Assembly: GCA_029861345.1 (NCBI GenBank) | Contig: JAOTZM010000005.1 | Span: 1-34,398 of the forward strand | Length of the DNA stretch: 34,398 nucleotides | From: Candidatus Nitrosopumilus sp. | Lineage (GTDB): Archaea > Thermoproteota > Nitrososphaeria > Nitrososphaerales > Nitrosopumilaceae | Direction of reading: 5' to 3' | In this document: positions 23,473 to 34,118 of the stretch, piece after piece | How positions within the stretch are numbered: the stretch's first letter is position 1 | Layout: each line of letters starts with the position of its first letter | Translations under genes and position numbers: made by a program | Notes under the pieces: generated by a model | Told to the model about the DNA's origin: nothing | Databases searched by the model: none | What the model saw: the letters and a program-made list of their open reading frames with translations, nothing else

Positions 23473-23824
23473 TCACTCAACTTTTTTGTAGGTTTGATGA
23501 AATTCTGTGAATATTGTTTGTGCAATATTTTGCAGATGAATTATTTCACTAAATTGTGTTTTCCCCTTTGAAATTTCTCACATAATAGTCATACATTTGT
23601 TATTTTTGATAGAGTTCGGCTCTTCAGTATCAGCCCATATATTAAAACAACCTTCAAAGTCGAGACAGAATTTTAGGATTATTACCTCCCAATCATCGGA
23701 TGTCTTAGGGATGTCGTGGCTTTGTCCATCTCACTAAATTCAGTTTTTCTGTTCCTTAGTAATAGATTTAGAGTTTCTCTAACTTTTTTTCATCATATCC
23801 ATCTATCAAATCAATTCTATTCAT
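23473..23824 (-). pseudogene. Decayed gene of unknown family, ~117 codons
   Basis: Three minus-strand frames join into one protein-like line. It runs MNRIDLIDGYDEKK, then (after an A7 run) VRETLNLLLRNRKTEFSEMD, then SDDWEVIILKFCLDFEGCFN, then past an in-frame TGA to FSEIIHLQNIAQTIFTEFHQ and a final TGA at 23473. At least two frameshifts and one stop are needed. The protein line is convincing, but no family is recognised. It may be a decayed gene, or an intact one broken by sequence errors at the A7 run. Confidence 0.55.
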
Positions 23825-23919
23825 GACAGTTTTTCTTTGACTGCTATTAAAAATGGATTCATATTTTCAGATATGATAACTTTGAACTAGTTTAACTACA
23901 AAGGTTGTGATTTAAAATC

Positions 23920-24042
23920 ATGCGAAATGATCCATTTTGTCACTGTGGTTCTTGCGGACATGAAAAAGTTGGAGAATGTTACACTAAACAATGTTCTTGT
24001 TGTTTAAGTGATCATCAAGGGGCATTTGGTAAAAATAAATGA
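23920..24042 (+). CDS. Cys/His-rich mini protein, 40 aa
   Basis: The 40 residues include 7 Cys and 3 His (CHCGSCGHEK, then CYTKQCSCC and a His further on), a dense metal-binding array. ATG start, TGA stop. It resembles the small Cys-rich peptides common in thaumarchaeal genomes. Zinc or copper binding is plausible. A TATA-like tttaaaat lies only ~8 nt away and cannot be the promoter, so the promoter is not located. Function unknown. Confidence 0.55.
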   Translation: MRNDPFCHCGSCGHEKVGECYTKQCSCCLSDHQGAFGKNK

Positions 24043-24102
24043 TTACAATTAAAATTAAAAAATCAAAGTAAAAGATTAATTTCTTCAAGAAATAGTTAAT
24101 TC

Positions 24103-24921
24103 ATAACTCAAAAAATTATCATTATAAAGGCAGATGGGAGTAAAGTTTCGTTTAATCCAAACAAGATCATAACAACTTGCATGAGGGCAGGAGCAAGTAA
24201 AGATGCATCTAAGAGAATAATTAAAAAAATTCGTGGCCAGATATATCGAGGAGTGGAAACGCATGATATTTACAAAATGGTCTTATCTGCACTAAGTGAG
24301 GAAAAAGATGGCACAGTACTGAAACAAAGATATCAACTAAAAGATGCGATTATGAAGATAGGCCCTGCAGGTTATATTTTTGAAGACTATGTTGGTGAAA
24401 TTCTAAAGCATTCAGGGTTTAAAATCAAAAACATTAGAGGAAAAGTAAGAGGAGAGTGCACGATTCATGAAATTGATCTGATTGCATTTACTGAAAATCA
24501 AAGAATACTAGTAGAATGCAAATATCACTCTAAACATGGGATTTATACTGGTCTGAAGGAATCCTTGTATACTCATGCACGGTTTTTAGATACTAATTCC
24601 TACTTTGATGAAGAATATCTTGTTTGTAACACCAAAGTTTCTACTCATGCAAAAAAATATGCAAAATGTGTAGGCCAAAATATTCTTTCATGGAGATATC
24701 CACCAAATAACAGCCTAGAAAAAATAATTGAGAAAAACCACCTCTATCCCATTACAATTTTGAATTTAAGTCCAAAGGAGGTTAGAATATTTTTGCATCA
24801 TGGAATTATGTTAGCTAAAAATATCTTAGATTACACCGAATATGAGTTATCTAAAGAAACTGGCATCAACATTAAAAGAATAAAAAATTTTCAAAAATTA
24901 ATTCGCAAGATAATATCCTAA
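24103..24921 (+). CDS. ATP-cone plus Mrr-like nuclease-fold protein, start codon unusual
   Basis: The first ~90 residues are an ATP-cone (KADGSKVSFNPNKIITTCMR and VETHDIYKMVLSALSEE), a nucleotide-sensing domain best known from ribonucleotide reductase. A PD-(D/E)xK domain follows: EIDLIAFTENQRILVECKYH gives the D-x9-E-C-K core. An all-helical C-terminus follows (~200 on). Archaeal proteins of this kind are known, but their job is unclear; restriction or repair is possible. The domain begins before the first ATG (24181). The frame opens after TAA 24097-24099 and reads ATA-ACT-CAA, which would be MTQKIIIIK if ATA starts it. Either ATA is used, or an ATG was lost. Confidence 0.75.
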   Translation: MTQKIIIIKADGSKVSFNPNKIITTCMRAGASKDASKRIIKKIRGQIYRGVETHDIYKMVLSALSEEKDGTVLKQRYQLKDAIMKIGPAGYIFEDYVGEILKHSGFKIKNIRGKVRGECTIHEIDLIAFTENQRILVECKYHSKHGIYTGLKESLYTHARFLDTNSYFDEEYLVCNTKVSTHAKKYAKCVGQNILSWRYPPNNSLEKIIEKNHLYPITILNLSPKEVRIFLHHGIMLAKNILDYTEYELSKETGINIKRIKNFQKLIRKIIS

Positions 24922-25223
24922 AATTAATTTTTGAGTCTATTGATTAATCAGTCCATCAGCAGACTAAGTTTAAGATCATGATTGTGCATGAAATTTTCAG
25001 ATAGAGAGATAAATGAAAAAACTGAAGTATGTAAATTTTCAATCAAACATATTTTGTTATATAGATTATGATTACAAATTTTTTAGTTCCTTTTCATGAT
25101 AATTGAATTTCTAATTTCAATTGCATTATGTTGACTAATTTTATTCCTAAAAAAATTAGGTGCGTCTAATTAGACTCGACTAATTTTCATATTGTTTAAT
25201 AGAATTAAAAATTATTACAAATC
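24922..25223. other. Intergenic region, ~300 nt
   Basis: AT-rich. A 28-codon ATG frame at about 25013 has no support from composition. The clear element is the palindrome at 25156-25183, just before the TATA of the 25224 gene. Confidence 0.5.
25156..25183. promoter_or_regulatory. 28-nt imperfect palindrome, candidate operator
   Basis: The core GTCTAATTAGAC is a perfect 12-base palindrome, and its flanks TTAG/CTAA also pair across the same centre, giving ~28 nt of near-symmetry. It lies 40-68 nt before the 25224 start and just upstream of a TATA-like gtttaatag (25194-25201). It is a natural binding site for a dimeric regulator. No cognate regulator gene is adjacent. Confidence 0.5.
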
Positions 25224-25508
25224 ATGAATCCATGGAATAAATTTTGGAATTGGTATGAAAATAAAATCCTAGGAAGTATAATCATCATTGCAATTATTCA
25301 ATTTATTCAAGTTCCACATATGGTGTGGAATGCAGATATAATGTTAGAGGCAGGAATTGTATCCAGAATACATCCAGTTCTTGATTGGTTCTTGTATGGA
25401 GTAGATTTGATTGAAATCATTTCAATTGTTAATGTTGGGATGATAATGTTTAGTCTAATTAAGAAAAGACGAGCTGGAAAAAAACAAGTTTCTGCTGATA
25501 TGACATAA
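25224..25508 (+). CDS. Small two-helix membrane protein, 94 aa
   Basis: Two hydrophobic helices (KILGSIIIIAIIQFIQV and LIEIISIVNVGMIMFSLI) with an aromatic N-terminus (NPWNKFWNWYENK), and a basic end (KKRRAGKK), which would sit in the cytoplasm. No catalytic motif. It stands alone with its own promoter and a palindrome just upstream. It could be a stress or transport accessory protein; I do not recognise the family. Confidence 0.6.
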   Translation: MNPWNKFWNWYENKILGSIIIIAIIQFIQVPHMVWNADIMLEAGIVSRIHPVLDWFLYGVDLIEIISIVNVGMIMFSLIKKRRAGKKQVSADMT

Positions 25509-25509
25509 T

Positions 25510-25712
25510 CTAATCCTTTGCTTTCCAAATAACGCGTTATGGAAATGGGATTTCTATTCCAGGCTTGTCTAAAGCATTTTTTATGTAGCAGGTAGGATCG
25601 GTTGAGCTTTGCTCCAATCATCTCTTGGGCCATACCAATACTGGGATACACTCGAATCACCAAGTTCTTCTACTCTAAATTCAGGTTCAGAAACTCGAAG
25701 AACAAAAGACAT
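25510..25712 (-). pseudogene. Remnant of an MscS-type mechanosensitive channel, C-terminus
   Basis: The minus strand reads FRVEELGDSSV then WYGPRDDWSKAQ. After a frame change it reads IKNALDKPGIEIPFP-stop-RVIWKAKD, the C-terminal signature of MscS proteins (...GIEIPFPQR...). The stop (TAA) replaces a Gln codon. The pore helices are absent, so only about the last 65 codons remain. It lies directly downstream of nreA on the same strand. It is a non-functional relic of a channel gene. Confidence 0.72.
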
Positions 25713-25729
25713 CATATGTTGTTAAAACT

Positions 25730-26887
25730 CTAAAAGAAATCGGACATTGTTTTTTGTCGCATTAAATTTAAGATGTTTCCATGTGAGAGCCATTCAGATT
25801 TGCTAATACTCATTTTGTTTGATGCCATAAGCAAAGCATGTTCCAAATTATCTGCTAACATTGGATTCTGCTTCATAGCCTCACGAATTCCTTCACGGAC
25901 CTGCCATACGCCTACAGGAATTGCATATTCAGGCATAATTTCCCGTAAAATGATGACTCCTGCCTGAATTTTCTTTTTCTGCAAGTATTCCACAACCCCC
26001 AATTTGGCTGCAAAATAAGCACCGGCTATTGCAGGAGGATGATCAATTCCGCGTGCATCTTCGTTATCAGAACCAAATCCCAATATCCCATTAGAATACC
26101 AAGCCTCGATCATTTCGTAGATCCACCTATGTGGAAACAAAACAACCGAGAAAACATTTCCTAAATGCTTATAGGAAAATACAGTACATGAATCAATCAA
26201 ACTATAATCTAAAATCTCATCAGTAATAGATTTAGAAATAATGTCATCAGTAGCTGTAATGCTCCATCTAGTGGGAACTAATTTTCTTTTTTGTCCTAAC
26301 ATTCCAATACTAAGACATTTTTGAATTTTTGAAATTTCAATTCCAGAATTATACAAATTTAAAACTGCATCTTGTGCTTTCAAGTCCTTATCATAAAATA
26401 TCTTTTCAATTGATTTTACAGAAGCAGTTCCAGAAAATTTTGCAGATTTTATCTCTCCAATTGGACCAAATGGTGCACTTTCACCATCAAGGGAAACATT
26501 TGTAGATGTTGCTTTATCAAATATCAAATCAGAATCAATAGGTTTTGAAGACATTGTAACTTCTTGAAGATTTTCAATGTAGCATCCATCTGTTTGATCA
26601 ATGGGGATTTTTTGTATGCCACGAACCAAATTTAGTCTAAAATTCACAATTTCCTCTAAAGATTTTCCTTTCCATTTTTCAGGAGTATCAAGTAGACTTG
26701 TGTCACCATGAATTGGTGGAACCATTGGACCAACAAAGACTTTAGGATAATTGTAAGAGCCCACAAAGACTGACGGAGGAGAAGTGCCACTAATTGAATC
26801 AGAAGAAAATAGATGTCCATATTTTGAGAGAGATTCATGCCATTTTGCCAATATGGATCTACGAATATCTTCAGAATCAGATGACAT
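25730..26887 (-). CDS. nreA: DNA repair protein NreA family
   Basis: The 385-residue Nre protein is recognised by GSYNYPKVFVGPMVPP near the N-terminus, ATDDIISK, FPHRWIYEMIEAW and MPEYAIPVGVWQVREG. It ends in QKTMSDFF, a PCNA-interacting (PIP) box of the form Q-x2-M-x2-FF. Haloferax NreA acts in DNA repair and contacts PCNA. The N-terminal C4 zinc finger of some homologues is missing. A TATA-like attaatagg (minus) lies ~26 nt before the ATG. It is divergent from the btuF-like gene. Strong assignment. Confidence 0.9.
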   Translation of the reverse strand: MSSDSEDIRRSILAKWHESLSKYGHLFSSDSISGTSPPSVFVGSYNYPKVFVGPMVPPIHGDTSLLDTPEKWKGKSLEEIVNFRLNLVRGIQKIPIDQTDGCYIENLQEVTMSSKPIDSDLIFDKATSTNVSLDGESAPFGPIGEIKSAKFSGTASVKSIEKIFYDKDLKAQDAVLNLYNSGIEISKIQKCLSIGMLGQKRKLVPTRWSITATDDIISKSITDEILDYSLIDSCTVFSYKHLGNVFSVVLFPHRWIYEMIEAWYSNGILGFGSDNEDARGIDHPPAIAGAYFAAKLGVVEYLQKKKIQAGVIILREIMPEYAIPVGVWQVREGIREAMKQNPMLADNLEHALLMASNKMSISKSEWLSHGNILNLMRQKTMSDFF

Positions 26888-26986
26888 TGTAATTTATGCC
26901 TAAATTGAGCCTATTAATCTGCCTAGTTAGGAAAATTGACATTTTGTAAACAGATGATGTTTAAGTAATAACTTCCAAAAAAGTTT

Positions 26987-27911
26987 ATGACAATAAAGAG
27001 AATTGTCTCTTTTTTGCCTAGTGCTACTGAATTACTATATGAATTAGGAGTACAGGATAAACTCTACGGAGTAACACATGAATGCAAATATCCACCAAAT
27101 GCAACTTCAAAACCACAAGTTATTGATTCTGTAATACATTCAGATGGGTTAACCAGTAAGGAAATAGATACAATGACTTGTCAGTTATTAAATGACGGAA
27201 AAGATATTTTCGTATTAAATGAGAAGAATCTAAAAGATGCCAATCCTGATCTAATTATATCACAAGAAACTTGTGAAGTATGTGCAGCACATACTAATCA
27301 AGTCAATAAAGCATTAAAAGTTCTTCAAAAAAAACCAATTCTGCATTCTATGAATCCTCATAATCTAGATGAAATCATAAATTCAGTTAAGGAATTAGGT
27401 AGAATTTTAGAAAAAGAAAGCAATGTAAAAAAAAATAACAGATGCGCTTGAAAAAAGAATTCAAAATGTAAAAAAAATTCCATGTGATGAAAGTCCCAAG
27501 GTTCTTGCCATTGAATGGATTGAACCATTCTTTACAGCAGGCCATTGGATTCCTGAAATGATACAAATTGCAGGAGGAATCAACATGATAAGTAAAATTG
27601 GAGAGCATTCAAGACGTTTAGATTTCCAAGAAATAATTGAAGATGAGCCAGACATAATTATCATGATGCCGTGTGGCTTCGATACCAAACGTACTATTTT
27701 TGAATATAATAACATACTAAAAGAAAATCAAAAATGGAATTCTCTAAAGGCAGTAAAAAATAATCAGATTTTTGCAGTAGATGCAAATTCATTTTTTAGT
27801 AAACCTAACATAAGAACTATAGACGGATTAGAAATACTTGCCAAAATCATCCAACCAGATAAATTTGAAACTCTAAAGGTTGCAGAAGGATCATTTTCGC
27901 ATATAAAATGA
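26987..27911 (+). pseudogene. BtuF-like cobalamin-binding protein, single-base frameshift in A9
   Basis: The frame starts RIVSFLPSATELLYELG, the start of a BtuF/COG0614-type binding fold, then ISQETCEVCAAH. It breaks in a run of nine A (27427-27435). In the next frame it continues ITDALEKRIQNVKK, then IEWIEPFFTAGHWIPEMI, MPCGFDTKRT and KNNQIFAVDANSFF. With eight A the two join into an ~307-residue normal-length protein, so one extra A disrupts it. No signal peptide, which is usual for archaeal cytosolic members. It may be a sequence error, slippery expression, or a recent pseudogene. Confidence 0.8.
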
Positions 27912-28114
27912 AAAGAAATACAGGCTCAATTATGAGAAGAGAATCCCAAATGATAAAACTAGTGTAATAAAAATTATTTTTAATTGAGGATATTAAGTTA
28001 ACAAAGATTTCAAAACTTTGTAGAATGGTTAATTTTAAAAATTAGCACTAGCAGAAAAAATGGCAGTTCTTTAAATAATCTCAGCCACGAATTTCTACAT
28101 GTTACAAGAATGGA

Positions 28115-28123
28115 TTATAAAAA
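28115..28123 (+). promoter_or_regulatory. TATA element deciding the start of the 28142 gene
   Basis: The element ttataaaaa is centred 24 nt before ATG 28142 but only ~9 nt before TTG 28127, so it favours the ATG. A GGAGAGGAA purine run lies between and could also act as a ribosome site. Confidence 0.4.
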
Positions 28124-28141
28124 AAATTGGAGAGGAACCTG

Positions 28142-28327
28142 ATGGGTAGGACATGCAGGGGAATTTGTGAAATGCATAAAGCAGAACCAGCTTCGAATAA
28201 AATAAGATATGAAATTGGACAGAAAAGATGCACATTCTGTGGAATATTTTTATCAGTAGATAATTCTAGATGTATTTGCTGTAAAGCAGTTTTAAGAACA
28301 AAACCAAGAGGCAAAAAGAAAGAGTAG
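28142..28327 (+). CDS. Small zinc-ribbon protein, 61 aa
   Basis: Begins GRTCRGICEMHKAEP, a thaumarchaeal motif, then KRCTFCGIFL and SRCICCKAVLRTKPRGKKKE: two C-x2-C knuckles plus the N-terminal C-x3-C. The very basic end suggests nucleic acid or ribosome contact. I chose ATG 28142 from the TATA position; TTG 28127 gives 66 residues. Its stop directly abuts the stop of the GTPase gene on the other strand. Such proteins are conserved across this group, but the role is unknown. Confidence 0.7.
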   Translation: MGRTCRGICEMHKAEPASNKIRYEIGQKRCTFCGIFLSVDNSRCICCKAVLRTKPRGKKKE

Positions 28328-29539
28328 TTATTTTTTTGCAGCACTAACTAGAGAAACAACATCTCTATCTCTTAATTGATAATCAACTGGAAGTCTCAAA
28401 TTATATCGTAAATCTTTTCCATAAAGAAGGCCTTTTGTCAAATCAGAATGGATCTCTCTTGCAAGATCATTTATTGTGGCCCCATCTTTTAGCAGAATCA
28501 AATCAGGCAATACCCTCCCCTTGCTATCAGCGAGGTTTTTCTCATCTGCGACAGGGTAAATAGAATTCATCTTAAGAAGCTTGAAAACTGCAACATTAAT
28601 TGCAAATTGCACACCAGTTCTCATGTATTCACCCATAATTCCTTTTTTGATTAAATTTAGAGCATTGATTTGCTTTTCATTTAATTTATCAGATTTAATA
28701 ATTTCAAATTGTTCAGAGCCAGGAGAATATTTTATCAATCCCTTTTGTTCTGCTCGCCTGAGACTAAATTCACTGTCACCACTTACAGGAATGACTATAG
28801 TATCATTATAGCGTTCTCTTAGACGGTCAAAGTTTTTGTCAGCACCTTCAACATCAATTTTGTTTGCTACGATCAGAGTTGGTTTTGAAATCTTTCGCAG
28901 GTGCGATGAAAATTTTTTACTATCTAGCATATCAAAATTATCAAAATCTTTTTCCACAAGTCCAGTTGCAAGAAGTGTTTCTTTCACATGATTTTTGTTT
29001 ACACCAATACCACGATAAAGATTAGTAATGACATCTAAAATATCAGAACCTGTCTGGATAAGTTTTGATACTTTTTCTCGATTGCCTTCTAAAATTTTTT
29101 GATACCACATGATTAATTCCTCCTCAATATCTGCAAAATCAGAAATAGGATCACCTGTTCCAACTTCAGTAATTTTTCCTGTTGAGTCAATTCCGCCAGA
29201 AGCATCAACCACATGAAGTAGCGCATCAGATTGTGCCGCAATAGAGAGGAATTGATTTCCTAATCCTTTTCCTTTCCATGCATCTTTGATAAGGCCAGGC
29301 AAATCAATCAGTTCTATTGGAATGTATCGCCATCCATCGACACATTTTGAGTTATTTGGATTATCTTGAATTTTAAATTCTGGATGAACACAAAGAGTAA
29401 TTGCATGCGTTATTCCAGACACTGGTGCTTTAGTAGTAAATGGATAGGATGAAATTTCCTCAGAAGATAGAGTAGAAGAATTAAAGAAAGTTGTCTTTCC
29501 AGTATTTGTTTTACCAATTAAACCAAGCTTGATAGGCAT
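28328..29539 (-). CDS. YchF/Obg-type GTP/ATP-binding protein with TGS domain
   Basis: The 403-residue protein starts with G1 GKTNTGKTT (9-17), G3 region LIDLPGLIKDA and base-contact NKID (IVANKIDVEG). A family-typical C-terminal TGS domain follows (ILLKDGATINDLAREIHSDL). Archaeal members are related to bacterial YchF/Obg and are linked to translation or ribosome function; archaeal/eukaryotic members belong to the Obg-HflX-like group. A TATA-like ataaatatt (minus) lies 24 nt before the ATG. It lies downstream of the hypothetical gene at 29574 on the same strand. Confident as a GTPase; the exact role is inferred. Confidence 0.9.
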   Translation of the reverse strand: MPIKLGLIGKTNTGKTTFFNSSTLSSEEISSYPFTTKAPVSGITHAITLCVHPEFKIQDNPNNSKCVDGWRYIPIELIDLPGLIKDAWKGKGLGNQFLSIAAQSDALLHVVDASGGIDSTGKITEVGTGDPISDFADIEEELIMWYQKILEGNREKVSKLIQTGSDILDVITNLYRGIGVNKNHVKETLLATGLVEKDFDNFDMLDSKKFSSHLRKISKPTLIVANKIDVEGADKNFDRLRERYNDTIVIPVSGDSEFSLRRAEQKGLIKYSPGSEQFEIIKSDKLNEKQINALNLIKKGIMGEYMRTGVQFAINVAVFKLLKMNSIYPVADEKNLADSKGRVLPDLILLKDGATINDLAREIHSDLTKGLLYGKDLRYNLRLPVDYQLRDRDVVSLVSAAKK

Positions 29540-29573
29540 AAAATAATTACTAGTTGAGAATATTTATCTCTGC

Positions 29574-29939
29574 CTAGGAACTAGAAGGATTTTTATTTTT
29601 AATTTTTTCAAGTGACTCATTAAGTTTTTTGAGAGCCCAATCAATGTCAGACAAGTCTTCAGCAGATAGACAGTCTCTCCATTTTTCTAAAACACTACTT
29701 GCAATTTCAGAACAATTGTAAAGTAAATTCCAATAAGGATGATGCTCAGCTGTTGTGTATGCAAGTTCTGTTACGTCACTAAGACCATTTTTTGCCCTTG
29801 CCAGAGACGTAATTTTTTCACCAAAGACTTTGACAATATCATTTTCAAGGTCCTTTTCAATTTTTAAAGGAGTGTTTTGTTGTTCATGTTTTTTTGCCAG
29901 ATCAAGTAATTCATGATAAAAATTTTCAAAGTTTGTCAT
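29574..29939 (-). CDS. Hypothetical helical protein, 121 aa
   Basis: Mostly helical and charged (LLDLAKKHEQQ, then DIDWALKKLNESLEKIKN). No metal motif, TM or signal. The gene lies one base after the CoA-binding protein stop on the same strand and precedes the GTPase by 34 nt, so it is probably operonic. No homologue is recognised; it could be a small regulatory partner. Confidence 0.55.
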   Translation of the reverse strand: MTNFENFYHELLDLAKKHEQQNTPLKIEKDLENDIVKVFGEKITSLARAKNGLSDVTELAYTTAEHHPYWNLLYNCSEIASSVLEKWRDCLSAEDLSDIDWALKKLNESLEKIKNKNPSSS

Positions 29940-29940
29940 G

Positions 29941-30351
29941 TTAACACAGTCTCTGATGCTCTGCTAACATACATCTGTTGAAAACAACTTTGATTCCTTC
30001 TTTTCTTGCTAATTCTTCAGCTTCAGAATTATGGATTCCCTCTTGCAACCAGATCACTTTGGGTTTTTTCTTTATGGCCTCTTTTACAAATGGTAAAACC
30101 TGATCCGAAGGTCTGAATATATCTACGATTTCAACATTTTCATCTATTTCTGAAATAGAATCATAGCATTTTTTACCTAAAATCTCATCAGATGATGGAT
30201 TTACAGGTGTAATATCATATCCATTATCAGCCAGATATTTGGGTACAAAGTGAGCTGCTTTAAAGGAACTTTTTGATATTCCTATAACAGCTACTTTTTT
30301 GAGAGAGAGAATATCACGAATTTGTTCATCAGTGTGATCATCTTGTTTCAT
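29941..30351 (-). CDS. CoA-binding protein (YccU-like), 136 aa
   Basis: CoA-binding Rossmann domain: KKVAVIGISKSSFKAAHFV, then LADNGYDITPVNPSSDEILG and VIWLQEGIHNSEAEELARKE, with a C-terminal CMLAEHQRL. Stand-alone forms bind CoA derivatives; the role is unclear. A longer frame starts at 30399, but a TATA-like element (minus, ~30376) lies 25 nt before ATG 30349-30351, supporting the shorter start. Operonic with the two genes downstream. Assignment to the family is firm. Confidence 0.85.
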   Translation of the reverse strand: MKQDDHTDEQIRDILSLKKVAVIGISKSSFKAAHFVPKYLADNGYDITPVNPSSDEILGKKCYDSISEIDENVEIVDIFRPSDQVLPFVKEAIKKKPKVIWLQEGIHNSEAEELARKEGIKVVFNRCMLAEHQRLC

Positions 30352-30437
30352 GATTAATGTGCAAACATGCAGAATATAATTTTTGAAGAAGGGTAACAAA
30401 ACAAAGAATTTTTTAGTCCTAATAAAACGAAGAATTC

Positions 30438-30947
30438 ATGGATCCAGAGCCAAAAGATATCATCGTTCTTGGAGCAATAAAACATGGAACCAACAAATTT
30501 GATAAAATTCAAAAAACCACACAGATTGAGCCTGAAGAACTTGATTCAATTTTAAAGCAACTAGAAGATAGAGAGTTAATTCAAGTAGAAGAAAAGAAAG
30601 GATGGCTAGGAAAGAAAATCGAAATCACAGTTACCGATAAAGGCTCAAAAGAAGTAGATGAGCAAGTTCATGAATTGCAAACAAAATGGAATCAGATGTC
30701 AGCATCATACAAAACAGGTGATAAAGAGAAGCTGAAACAATACATGGATGATAACAGATCATTTTTCCCAATGATGATGTTCTTTGGAGTAATGGATATG
30801 ATGATGTTCTCAATGATGTTCAGTATGATGGGAATGGCGATGTCAGATTATGTTCCACCAGAAAATATGCCAGAAGGAGGAGATGCAGGTATTGATGACA
30901 GCAGTGGTATGGATGACGGAGGATTTGATTTTGATGTTGGGTTCTAG
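30438..30947 (+). CDS. Winged-helix protein with Met-rich hydrophobic segment, 169 aa
   Basis: Residues 1-75 form a winged helix (EPKDIIVLGAIKHGTNKF, then EELDSILKQLEDRELIQVEE). Residues 112-135 hold 13 Met in 24, with Phe and Gly between (PMMMFFGVMDMMMFSMMFSM). The tail is acidic and Gly-rich. The Met-rich helix could sit in a membrane, self-associate or bind Cu(I), which matters in copper-dependent ammonia oxidisers. It is a candidate regulator with an unusual tail. A TATA-like taataaaac is ~15-20 nt upstream. BirA follows after 36 nt. Confidence 0.6.
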   Translation: MDPEPKDIIVLGAIKHGTNKFDKIQKTTQIEPEELDSILKQLEDRELIQVEEKKGWLGKKIEITVTDKGSKEVDEQVHELQTKWNQMSASYKTGDKEKLKQYMDDNRSFFPMMMFFGVMDMMMFSMMFSMMGMAMSDYVPPENMPEGGDAGIDDSSGMDDGGFDFDVGF

Positions 30948-30950
30948 TGT

Positions 30951-30960
30951 ATATTTTATA
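30951..30960 (+). promoter_or_regulatory. TATA element of birA
   Basis: The element atattttata is centred 27 nt before the TTG at 30984. It makes birA a leaderless TTG-start message and fixes the start. Confidence 0.45.
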
Positions 30961-30983
30961 CTCCAAATAAAAACAGACCATAA

Positions 30984-31991
30984 TTGATTTACAATTCTTT
31001 TGAGAATCCAGGATTAGTAAAAGTACTAACATTTTTGAAAACTCATAATACAGAGTATTTATCTGGTCAAGACTTGAGTGACGTTTTGAGAATAAGCAGG
31101 GTTGCAGTATGGAAACATATCAAAAAAATTCAAGAGTTAGGATACATTGTAGAGTCAAAACAGAAGATGGGGTACAAGTTAACATCAAATTCAGATGCTC
31201 TTTTGCCATGGGAAATTACTTCAGGTCTTAAAACAAAAATGATTGGACATCAGGTGTACTATTTTGACTCTTTAGACTCTACTCAGAATCAGGCACTAAA
31301 AATGGCAGATAATCCATCAAATAATGGGGCAGTAATAGTTGCAGCACAGCAGACAGGCGGAAGAGGGAGATCCGGAAGAAAATGGATTTCCCCCAAAGGA
31401 GGCATTTGGTTTTCAGTAATTTTACAACCAAAGTTTGACATTTCCATTACAACACTATTTCCAATTGCATCTGCACTAGCATTATCAAATGCAATAGAAA
31501 AAACATTCAAGATTTCACCTGAATTAAAATGGCCAAATGACTTGACTATCAAAGGCAAAAAAATTGCGGGAATGCTTGTTGATGTATCACTTGAATCAAA
31601 TAGAATTGAGAATATGGTTTTAGGCGTAGGAATAAATTTTAATGTAGATGTAAAACAAATAGAGAAAACACTAAAGGACACGCCAAATTTTTATGGGATA
31701 GAATCTCTTAATCAGCAAAAAAAGAATGTTAAACCAGTTCAGTTGGTTCAAACATTTTTAGTAGAATTAGAAAAAATTTATGAATTATTAAATGCAAAAC
31801 ACACAAAGAAAATCATTTTAGAATGGACAAAAAGATCATCAACAATTGGAAAGAATGTAGAGTTAGAGACTATAGATGGCAAAATAAAAGGAAAGGCAAT
31901 TAAAATTGATGATGATGGCGCATTAATAATATCAGATAACGGGAAAACGAACAAAATAATATCTGGAGATATTATTCATTTATCAAAGTAG
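30984..31991 (+). CDS. birA: Bifunctional biotin ligase/biotin repressor BirA
   Basis: The 335-residue protein has an N-terminal winged helix (~10-65, SGQDLSDVLRISRVAVWKHI) and a biotin-protein ligase domain: GGRGRSGRKW (125-134) binds biotinyl-AMP, KWPND (182-186), then KKIAGMLVD. A C-terminal SH3-like domain follows. It attaches biotin to carboxylases such as acetyl-/propionyl-CoA carboxylase of the 3-hydroxypropionate/4-hydroxybutyrate cycle and may repress biotin genes. The start is TTG. Assignment strong. Confidence 0.93.
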   Translation: MIYNSFENPGLVKVLTFLKTHNTEYLSGQDLSDVLRISRVAVWKHIKKIQELGYIVESKQKMGYKLTSNSDALLPWEITSGLKTKMIGHQVYYFDSLDSTQNQALKMADNPSNNGAVIVAAQQTGGRGRSGRKWISPKGGIWFSVILQPKFDISITTLFPIASALALSNAIEKTFKISPELKWPNDLTIKGKKIAGMLVDVSLESNRIENMVLGVGINFNVDVKQIEKTLKDTPNFYGIESLNQQKKNVKPVQLVQTFLVELEKIYELLNAKHTKKIILEWTKRSSTIGKNVELETIDGKIKGKAIKIDDDGALIISDNGKTNKIISGDIIHLSK

Positions 31992-31992
31992 A

Positions 31993-32340
31993 TTATTTTT
32001 TAGAAGTTTTTGATTTAGTTTTTGTCTTTGATTGTTTTTTTGTTTGTGATGAAATCATTAAAGATTGTTCTTTTAGTATTTCCTTTAGATCGTTTTGTAT
32101 CTCTAAAACATACAAAAGCAATTCTTCTAAAATTTTAGAATATTGTTCATATATAGATAATAGATCAGTTTTCTTTTCATTTACCTTCAACAGGCATTCA
32201 TTTGAGCGCAATAGATTTGCCGCATTGATTAATTCAGGCACATCAGATACAGATCCCTCTAATTGATTCAAATCTGCCTTAATCTGATGAATTTTTTTAC
32301 GCAAATCAGGGATTATCTCCCCAGTAGGAATTTCTGTCAA
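31993..32340 (-). CDS. Coiled-coil protein with Lys/Thr-rich tail, 115 aa
   Basis: Two helical segments (DLRKKIHQIKADLNQLEGSV and LLSIYEQYSKILEELLLYVL) and a repetitive basic tail (KTKTKSKTSKK). The tail suggests nucleic acid binding. The stop is 1 nt from the birA stop on the other strand. The TTG start at 32340 is 26 nt from a TATA-like element (minus, 32361-32370), so I prefer it over ATG 32358 (121 aa) or 32388 (131 aa). Unknown function. Confidence 0.6.
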   Translation of the reverse strand: MTEIPTGEIIPDLRKKIHQIKADLNQLEGSVSDVPELINAANLLRSNECLLKVNEKKTDLLSIYEQYSKILEELLLYVLEIQNDLKEILKEQSLMISSQTKKQSKTKTKSKTSKK

Positions 32341-32360
32341 TACAAAATACGTGATCATGA

Positions 32361-32370
32361 ATAAATTAAA
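32361..32370 (-). promoter_or_regulatory. TATA element of the coiled-coil gene
   Basis: On the minus strand tttaatttat is centred ~26 nt before TTG 32340, giving a leaderless start. Confidence 0.4.
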
Positions 32371-32532
32371 GATTTTCAATAGGTGCATTTTGTTTTTTAA
32401 GTAATGGCAAAGTTGAACACATCAGATCTTGTTCTAAAAAATGAGAATGAGTGTTAGCTCAACCTACACACAATTAACCTGCAGAAATTAGGTAGAAGTG
32501 ATAATAAGGTAAAGTGGGCAATTCTTCGTTGT

Positions 32533-33444
32533 ATGCTTAAAAATTCATTGATTAGTGGACCAAAATGTCCAGCATGTGGAGATAAAAAAATGGTCACAGA
32601 TCAAAATACAGGAGAGTTGTTTTGTGGAAAATGCGGATTTGTAGTGACAGATAAAATTACAGATACAGGTGCAGAATGGAGATCTTTTGCAAATGATGAA
32701 AGTAATAGAACTAGAGTAGGAGCTGGAACTTCACTAACAATGCATGACATGGGTTTATCAACTGTGATTGGAGCAGCTAACAAAGATTCAACAGGAAAAC
32801 CGCTATCTGCAAGTGTAAAGAGTTCAATTGAAAGGTTAAGAACATGGGATAGTAGAACACAAGCACATTCTTCTGCAGATAGGAATCTCAGACAAGCACT
32901 TAATGAAATGGATAAATTAAAAGATAAACTTGCATTGACTGACGCAGTAGTAGAAAAAGCAGCTTATATTTACAGAAAAGCAATGGAGAAAAAATTAGTA
33001 AGAGGTCGTTCAATTCAAGGGCTAGTTGCAGCATGTCTTTATGCATCATGTAGAAACACAGAAACACCAAGAACATTGGACGATGTTGCTAAAGGAATCA
33101 ATATCAGAAGAAAAGATGTTGCAAGATGTTACAGATTAATTTTCAGAGAACTTGAGTTAAAAATGCCAGTTGTGGATCCTGTAAAAGGAGTTTCAAGAAT
33201 TGCAAGCATAGCAGAATTAAGTGAAAAAAGTAAACGCAAGGCAATTGCAATATTAAATGAAGCAAAGAAACTAGGCATGGTTGCAGGAAAGGATCCAATG
33301 GGAATTGCTGCTGCTGCACTTTATCTTGCATGTATAAGTTCTGGAGAAGTAAAATCCCAAAAGGATATCTCAATTGCATCAGGAGTTACAGAAGTTACTA
33401 TTAGAAACAGATGTGCAGGTTTGAGAAAGATGCTCAATAACTAA
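32533..33444 (+). CDS. tfb: Transcription initiation factor TFB
   Basis: The 303-residue TFB has a zinc ribbon (Cys12, 15, 31, 34: CPACGDKK ... FCGKCGFV), a B-finger/linker (NRTRVGAGTSLT), and two cyclin repeats (RNLRQALNEMDKLKDKLALT and GVSRIASIAELSEKSKRKAI). It bridges TBP at TATA to RNA polymerase. Thaumarchaea often carry several TFBs, so this may be one of a set. TATA-like ataataagg is ~28 nt before the ATG. Downstream is only a short fragment. Strong assignment. Confidence 0.95.
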   Translation: MLKNSLISGPKCPACGDKKMVTDQNTGELFCGKCGFVVTDKITDTGAEWRSFANDESNRTRVGAGTSLTMHDMGLSTVIGAANKDSTGKPLSASVKSSIERLRTWDSRTQAHSSADRNLRQALNEMDKLKDKLALTDAVVEKAAYIYRKAMEKKLVRGRSIQGLVAACLYASCRNTETPRTLDDVAKGINIRRKDVARCYRLIFRELELKMPVVDPVKGVSRIASIAELSEKSKRKAIAILNEAKKLGMVAGKDPMGIAAAALYLACISSGEVKSQKDISIASGVTEVTIRNRCAGLRKMLNN

Positions 33445-33525
33445 ATGTTAGACGGATTAGACTTTAGTTCTAAAAAGGTTTTAAAAATTCTAGAATCGTC
33501 AACGGTTTTTATGATATATCTAGCC

Positions 33526-33654
33526 ATGAAGGTTTTATTCATAGGTAGTTCTGAGAATATAAAAAAATTCAGTGAGGCACATCAGAGAAATGTGTTTCAA
33601 AATCTCTTAGATTCAGAAGGGAAGATAATTTCAAAAAGATTGAAAATGTGTTAA
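33526..33654 (+). CDS. Short Rossmann-like frame (possible gene fragment), 42 aa
   Basis: The ATG frame starts MKVLFIGSSENIKKF, like the start of a Rossmann fold, but ends after 42 residues (KRLKMC). The frame is also open from ATG 33445, directly after the TFB stop. A TATA-like tttttatga lies ~18 nt upstream. It is probably a truncated gene or chance; no rest of the fold follows. Confidence 0.3.
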   Translation: MKVLFIGSSENIKKFSEAHQRNVFQNLLDSEGKIISKRLKMC

Positions 33655-33708
33655 TTGAAAATCAAGAAAGAACACAAAGGACAACTATACGTTGCATGAA
33701 TTAGCATG

Positions 33709-34118
33709 TTATTTCTGAGATCTTTTGAATTCTAATTTATCCCAAGGAAAAACAACATAAGCAGTGTTATCTGTTTTTTTAGTATAAACAAATTGTTTTG
33801 GATATTTTTTTCCACGTCTTGCAAACAAGGTAACAAAAATCAGTTCTGATGTGTTGTCCACATTAGAAATAATATTGTCAAAAGTTTTTCCAGAATCAAA
33901 AATATCATCAACAAATATTGAATTAGAAGATATTTTCTTTTTATTGACAAAAAAATTTCAATTCCCAAATGATCTGTTAGTAAACATGAAGACACTAGTA
34001 CTCCTCTACTCAGAGTTGTAATACTAGAAAATTTTTGTGATAATTTTGAAATTTTTCTAGAAAGTTTTTCTACCAAAAGTTCTATTTCATCCCAGCTAAC
34101 ATCTTGTTCAGTAGTCAT
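33709..34118 (-). pseudogene. Frameshifted phosphoribosyltransferase (purine/HGPRT-like)
   Basis: The N-terminal frame (MTTEQDVSWDEIE, then ITTLSRGVLVSSCLLTDHLG) breaks in a T7 run (plus 33950-33956). One extra T would join it to the second frame, ISSNSIFVDDIFDSGKTF, the PRPP-binding loop, then FARRGKKYPKQFVYT and VVFPWDKLEF to TAA 33709. The whole would be ~136 residues, normal for this small family. The usual SRGGLVP/R motif is SRGVLVSSC, so key residues are also lost. It is either real decay or an error plus divergence. Confidence 0.72.

Follow-up and report, generated by a model that had tools for sequence, protein, structure and literature searches.

Probable gene decay at two loci and a separate, probably younger frame break in a BtuF-like gene at A/T runs of a Nitrosopumilus-group draft genome

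We found that three genes in a 34,398-nucleotide stretch of archaeal DNA (hereafter the window) are broken at A/T runs, and that these breaks differ in kind. Ordinary gene decay in an AT-rich archaeon very probably accounts for two of them, a gene near 23.5 kb and a phosphoribosyltransferase (PRT), while the A9 of a BtuF-like gene would be a separate, younger event and possibly a consensus error. The original prediction had described all three as genes broken at homopolymers and had favoured sequencing error, with decay or slippage as alternatives. All three breaks are indeed present, and every one involves an A/T run of 7-9, yet they differ from one another, and a single cause for all of them is unsupported. 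In draft archaeal genomes, a frame break at an A/T run is thus not to be dismissed as sequencing error, nor are such breaks to be assigned one common cause; gene-by-gene comparison with relatives tells true decay from doubtful calls.

Genome and control comparison

The window comes from contig 78 of G000, a Nitrosopumilus-group draft genome (1.74 Mb, 192 contigs, 95% complete); among named genomes, those of Nitrosopumilus and of Marine Group I thaumarchaeotes are closest to it. Its G+C content is 33%, A/T runs of at least 7 number about 60 in 34 kb, and the 32 unbroken genes contain 30 A7/T7 and four A8/T8 runs. Window copies were judged against relatives from genus genomes, with G000 as the sole genome of its species compared.

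To control for assembly-wide error, we took ORFs from 800 kb of the single-contig relative G088 and matched them to the window and to 341 kb from other contigs of G000. The control rests on one reference genome and, when the window is counted, on about 98 kb of matched coding sequence. None of the 117 matched genes in the 341-kb sample was credibly frame-broken, and four A9/T9 runs lying in coding sequence beyond the window all kept the frame. Paralogues or a spurious ORF explained the two-frame flags. Outside the window, the single-frame flags came from in-frame stops, most of them close to the N-terminus, and were taken as upstream start extensions or spurious ORFs (L211 and L218 alone were inspected individually); antisense ORFs and N-terminal extensions were the source of the spurious flags. 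Breaks in other long-run genes across the assembly, the mark of homopolymer error, were thus not found in this sample, and with no credible break in 117 genes and four A9/T9 runs in frame, homopolymer error throughout the assembly is unlikely. Among the matched window genes 3/16 were broken (Fisher p = 0.0015), a figure that is descriptive only, as the window was chosen for them. Since the 30 A7/T7 and four A8/T8 runs lie in unbroken window genes and 0/117 genes are credibly broken elsewhere, the breaks exceed chance.

Two decayed genes

The gene near 23.5 kb (23473-23824, minus strand) encoded a 117-aa protein of unknown function and now carries two frameshifts and one nonsense codon. Relative to five intact relatives, the first lesion is a -1 at an A7 on the sense strand (T7 on the plus strand; 23784-23790), a further -1 is located near 23714-23718, away from long runs, and at 23578-23580 the arginine codon of the relatives is replaced by an in-frame TGA. 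Intact homologues occur, for example, in G058, G050, G003 and G012, and in G050 the gene adjoins an Hsp20 gene, likewise in the window. The predicted break near A7 is therefore real but accompanied by a second frameshift and a stop, and the expectation that one base added or removed would join the gene was wrong. Since it has been disabled more than once and independently, as judged by comparison with the intact orthologues, it is an established multi-lesion pseudogene.

The second gene is a purine/xanthine PRT-like pseudogene (33709-34118, minus strand) whose relatives are intact or independently broken. Alignment with about 20 relatives places the loss of frame at a T7 on the sense strand (33949-33955), one base off the predicted 33950-33956. 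Intact relatives contain the motifs SRGGL.P.R and VDDIFD[TS]G, which we take, from their roles in the type I PRT family, to be the pyrophosphate loop and the PRPP motif, respectively. In the window copy, 7 of 41 genus-invariant residues are changed (G40V, P43S, R45C, A48T, I56F, D59N and L110F), compared to two or fewer in each of 43 relatives, and the pyrophosphate-loop residues G40, P43 and R45 are gone. The nearest solved structures are purine PRTs of the GpT-1 type and xanthine PRTs. Intact relatives share with PRK09177 and GpT-1 (PDB 4trb) the loop SRGG, the PRPP motif DDIFDTG and a C-terminal FPWD, but an intact relative scores only 48.5 bits with the xanthine PRT model NF006613, below its curated NCBIfam cut-off of 138 bits, and the window copy differs further in its frameshift and lost loop residues.

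A homopolymer sequencing error cannot yield this pattern at invariant sites, so the PRT appears to have been decaying already when it was sequenced. Frame disruption combined with loss of constraint at conserved sites marks it as a pseudogene, and its break is, on this comparative evidence, real decay. A PRT match was obtained in 65 of 95 genus genomes, 7-8 of which are frame-broken, including the single-contig genome G067. That the breaks of G000, G009 and G017 lie only a few codons apart (residues ~51-58) could point to a programmed frameshift. The direction differs, however, with -1 in G000 and G009 and +1 in G017, the frame is lost at residues ~40, ~60 or ~100 in other genomes, most relatives are unbroken, and G000 has lost its loop residues. 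As both direction and site vary among species, we rejected programmed frameshifting, which is extremely improbable here.

The window PRT shares G40V and R45C with the decayed copy in G017 (G017:C1:251700-252102). Joint inheritance of these two changes was considered and rejected: since G015, which groups with G017, retains an intact loop, they apparently arose by convergent decay.

Next to the PRT, at 33446-33704 on the plus strand, lies the remnant of its conserved neighbour, a GIY-YIG-like gene of about 95 aa, with several indels and frame switches. This fourth broken gene was missed in the original prediction. The GIY-YIG-like gene is intact in L088/L135, L032, L141, L137, L044 and others, and in L088 the PRT is intact as well. 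In L086, L089 and L090, both genes are absent from between the TFB and 80-aa genes, which are adjacent or nearly so, compared to about 710 bp apart in the window. As a concatenated-protein tree places the window near the L086/L089/L090 group, with L088 branching outside those three, the losses of the PRT and its neighbour in related species and in the window look independent. Repeated, independent loss of this gene pair is thereby documented across the Nitrosopumilus group.

A frame break was also noticed in another relative, where the GTPase gene of MAG HM_N (L087:11288-12312) is split over two frames. Our literature search returned nothing relevant on frameshift pseudogenes in Nitrosopumilus.

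A single frameshift in the BtuF-like gene

The BtuF-like gene (26987-27911, plus strand) has one frame switch, located exactly where it had been predicted, in the A9 at 27427-27435, the longest run in the window. The joined protein carries the Peripla_BP_2 domain (PF01497, E 2.7e-23) over residues 6-266, as do BtuF-type substrate-binding proteins. It differs from BtuF proper in scoring 27 bits with the BtuF model NF002894, far under the curated cut-off of 234 bits, and in having no signal peptide evident by eye. Of the 69 genus genomes in which a match was obtained, 65 have an unbroken copy; the exceptions are the window itself, G012 and G096, whose copies are broken, and G047, whose copy is a contig-edge fragment.

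Only 1 of 90 invariant residues is changed in the window copy, and amino-acid change in the window lineage is no higher than in the relatives on either side of the run, which suggests that the lesion is very recent, unreal or tolerated. Loss of constraint beyond the single frameshift, which would indicate a pseudogene, was not found in this gene. At the run site most relatives lack a long run, the closest relative (L279, 82% identical) has an in-frame A8, and an A9 was seen in none of them. Most likely, the A9 is thus a separate and much younger single +1, either a recent real mutation or a strain polymorphism.

Competing explanations

Sequencing or assembly error behind all three breaks would fit a draft of 192 contigs in which each of the three genes loses its frame at an A/T run of 7-9. 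The comparison with related genomes nevertheless speaks against error in the 23.5-kb gene and the PRT: both have lesions outside runs, namely the TGA, the second frameshift and the invariant-site substitutions, related species have lost the PRT by deletion and one single-contig genome has it broken, and the control sample is free of credible breaks despite its A9/T9 runs. Error as the common cause is already refuted for these two genes and, for the set as a whole, very unlikely. Error may apply only to the A9 of the BtuF-like gene. A consensus error at this site would be in line with the length of the run and the normal constraint on the rest of the gene, but the four other coding A9/T9 runs of the assembly are in frame, and we regard such an error as possible, though on balance doubtful.

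The BtuF-like gene might also still be expressed, if slippage of RNA polymerase or ribosome on the A9 yields some full-length protein. In many bacterial genomes, A/T runs begin to show selection against transcriptional slippage at a length of nine (PMC1088944), and the A9 reaches the length at which slippage rescue comes into consideration (about 9 or more A/T at the frameshift). Both halves of the gene are still constrained, and there is a precedent in frameshifted genes of Blochmannia and Buchnera, with single run indels in Blochmannia genes thought to be rescued by slippage (PMC3017870). Those genomes are likewise AT-rich, with single A/T-run indels in otherwise constrained genes and eroded genes alongside; the present host, however, is an archaeon and not an insect endosymbiont, its genome is not generally riddled with breaks, and rescue here would be putative. 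The A9 is moreover absent from all relatives compared, and a very young lesion would leave the same pattern of constraint. We therefore consider some continued expression unlikely, and a functional gene, with transcriptional slippage restoring the frame across its A9, slightly less likely still. If true, it would extend endosymbiont-style tolerance of frameshifts to an ammonia-oxidizing archaeon.

From the observed lesions, their independence across species, the loss of constraint in two genes and the absence of the block from related species, we infer that the run indels arose by replication slippage and persist because the genes are dispensable. Slippage in short A/T runs would create indels, which would persist in genes that are dispensable in the lineage, such as the 117-aa gene and the pair of GIY-YIG-like gene and PRT, where more lesions would then accumulate. 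The decaying segment would finally be deleted, as already occurred in related species. The BtuF-like A9 would be a later, lone +1 in an A run whose counterpart in a relative is an in-frame A8.

A conserved ATA at an apparent start position

An ATP-cone/Mrr-type gene (24103-24921, plus strand) has a conserved ATA at its apparent start position. The gene has no ATG, GTG or TTG ahead of its domain, and two codons before the apparent start at 24103 there is an in-frame TAA. Among the 20 copies that include the start region, the window among them, the codon at this position is ATA in 17, GTG in two and ATG in one; in a more distant 21st homologue (L323), an ATG is found nearby. A TATA-like box of the AGATTAAT type, at 24073-24080 in the window, is positioned exactly 30 nt upstream of the apparent start in 16/20 copies, in keeping with a leaderless transcript that begins near the ATA. 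This arrangement suggests that the mRNA may be AUA-initiated and possibly leaderless; an archaeal AUA start was not found in a limited search of the literature.

Upstream of this gene, we noted an unlisted 40-aa cysteine-rich ORF (MRNDPFCHCGSCGHEKVGECYTKQCSCCLSDHQGAFGKNK; 23920-24042, plus strand). Many genus genomes conserve the DNA of this interval, and contig 116 of G000 contains another stretch similar to it.
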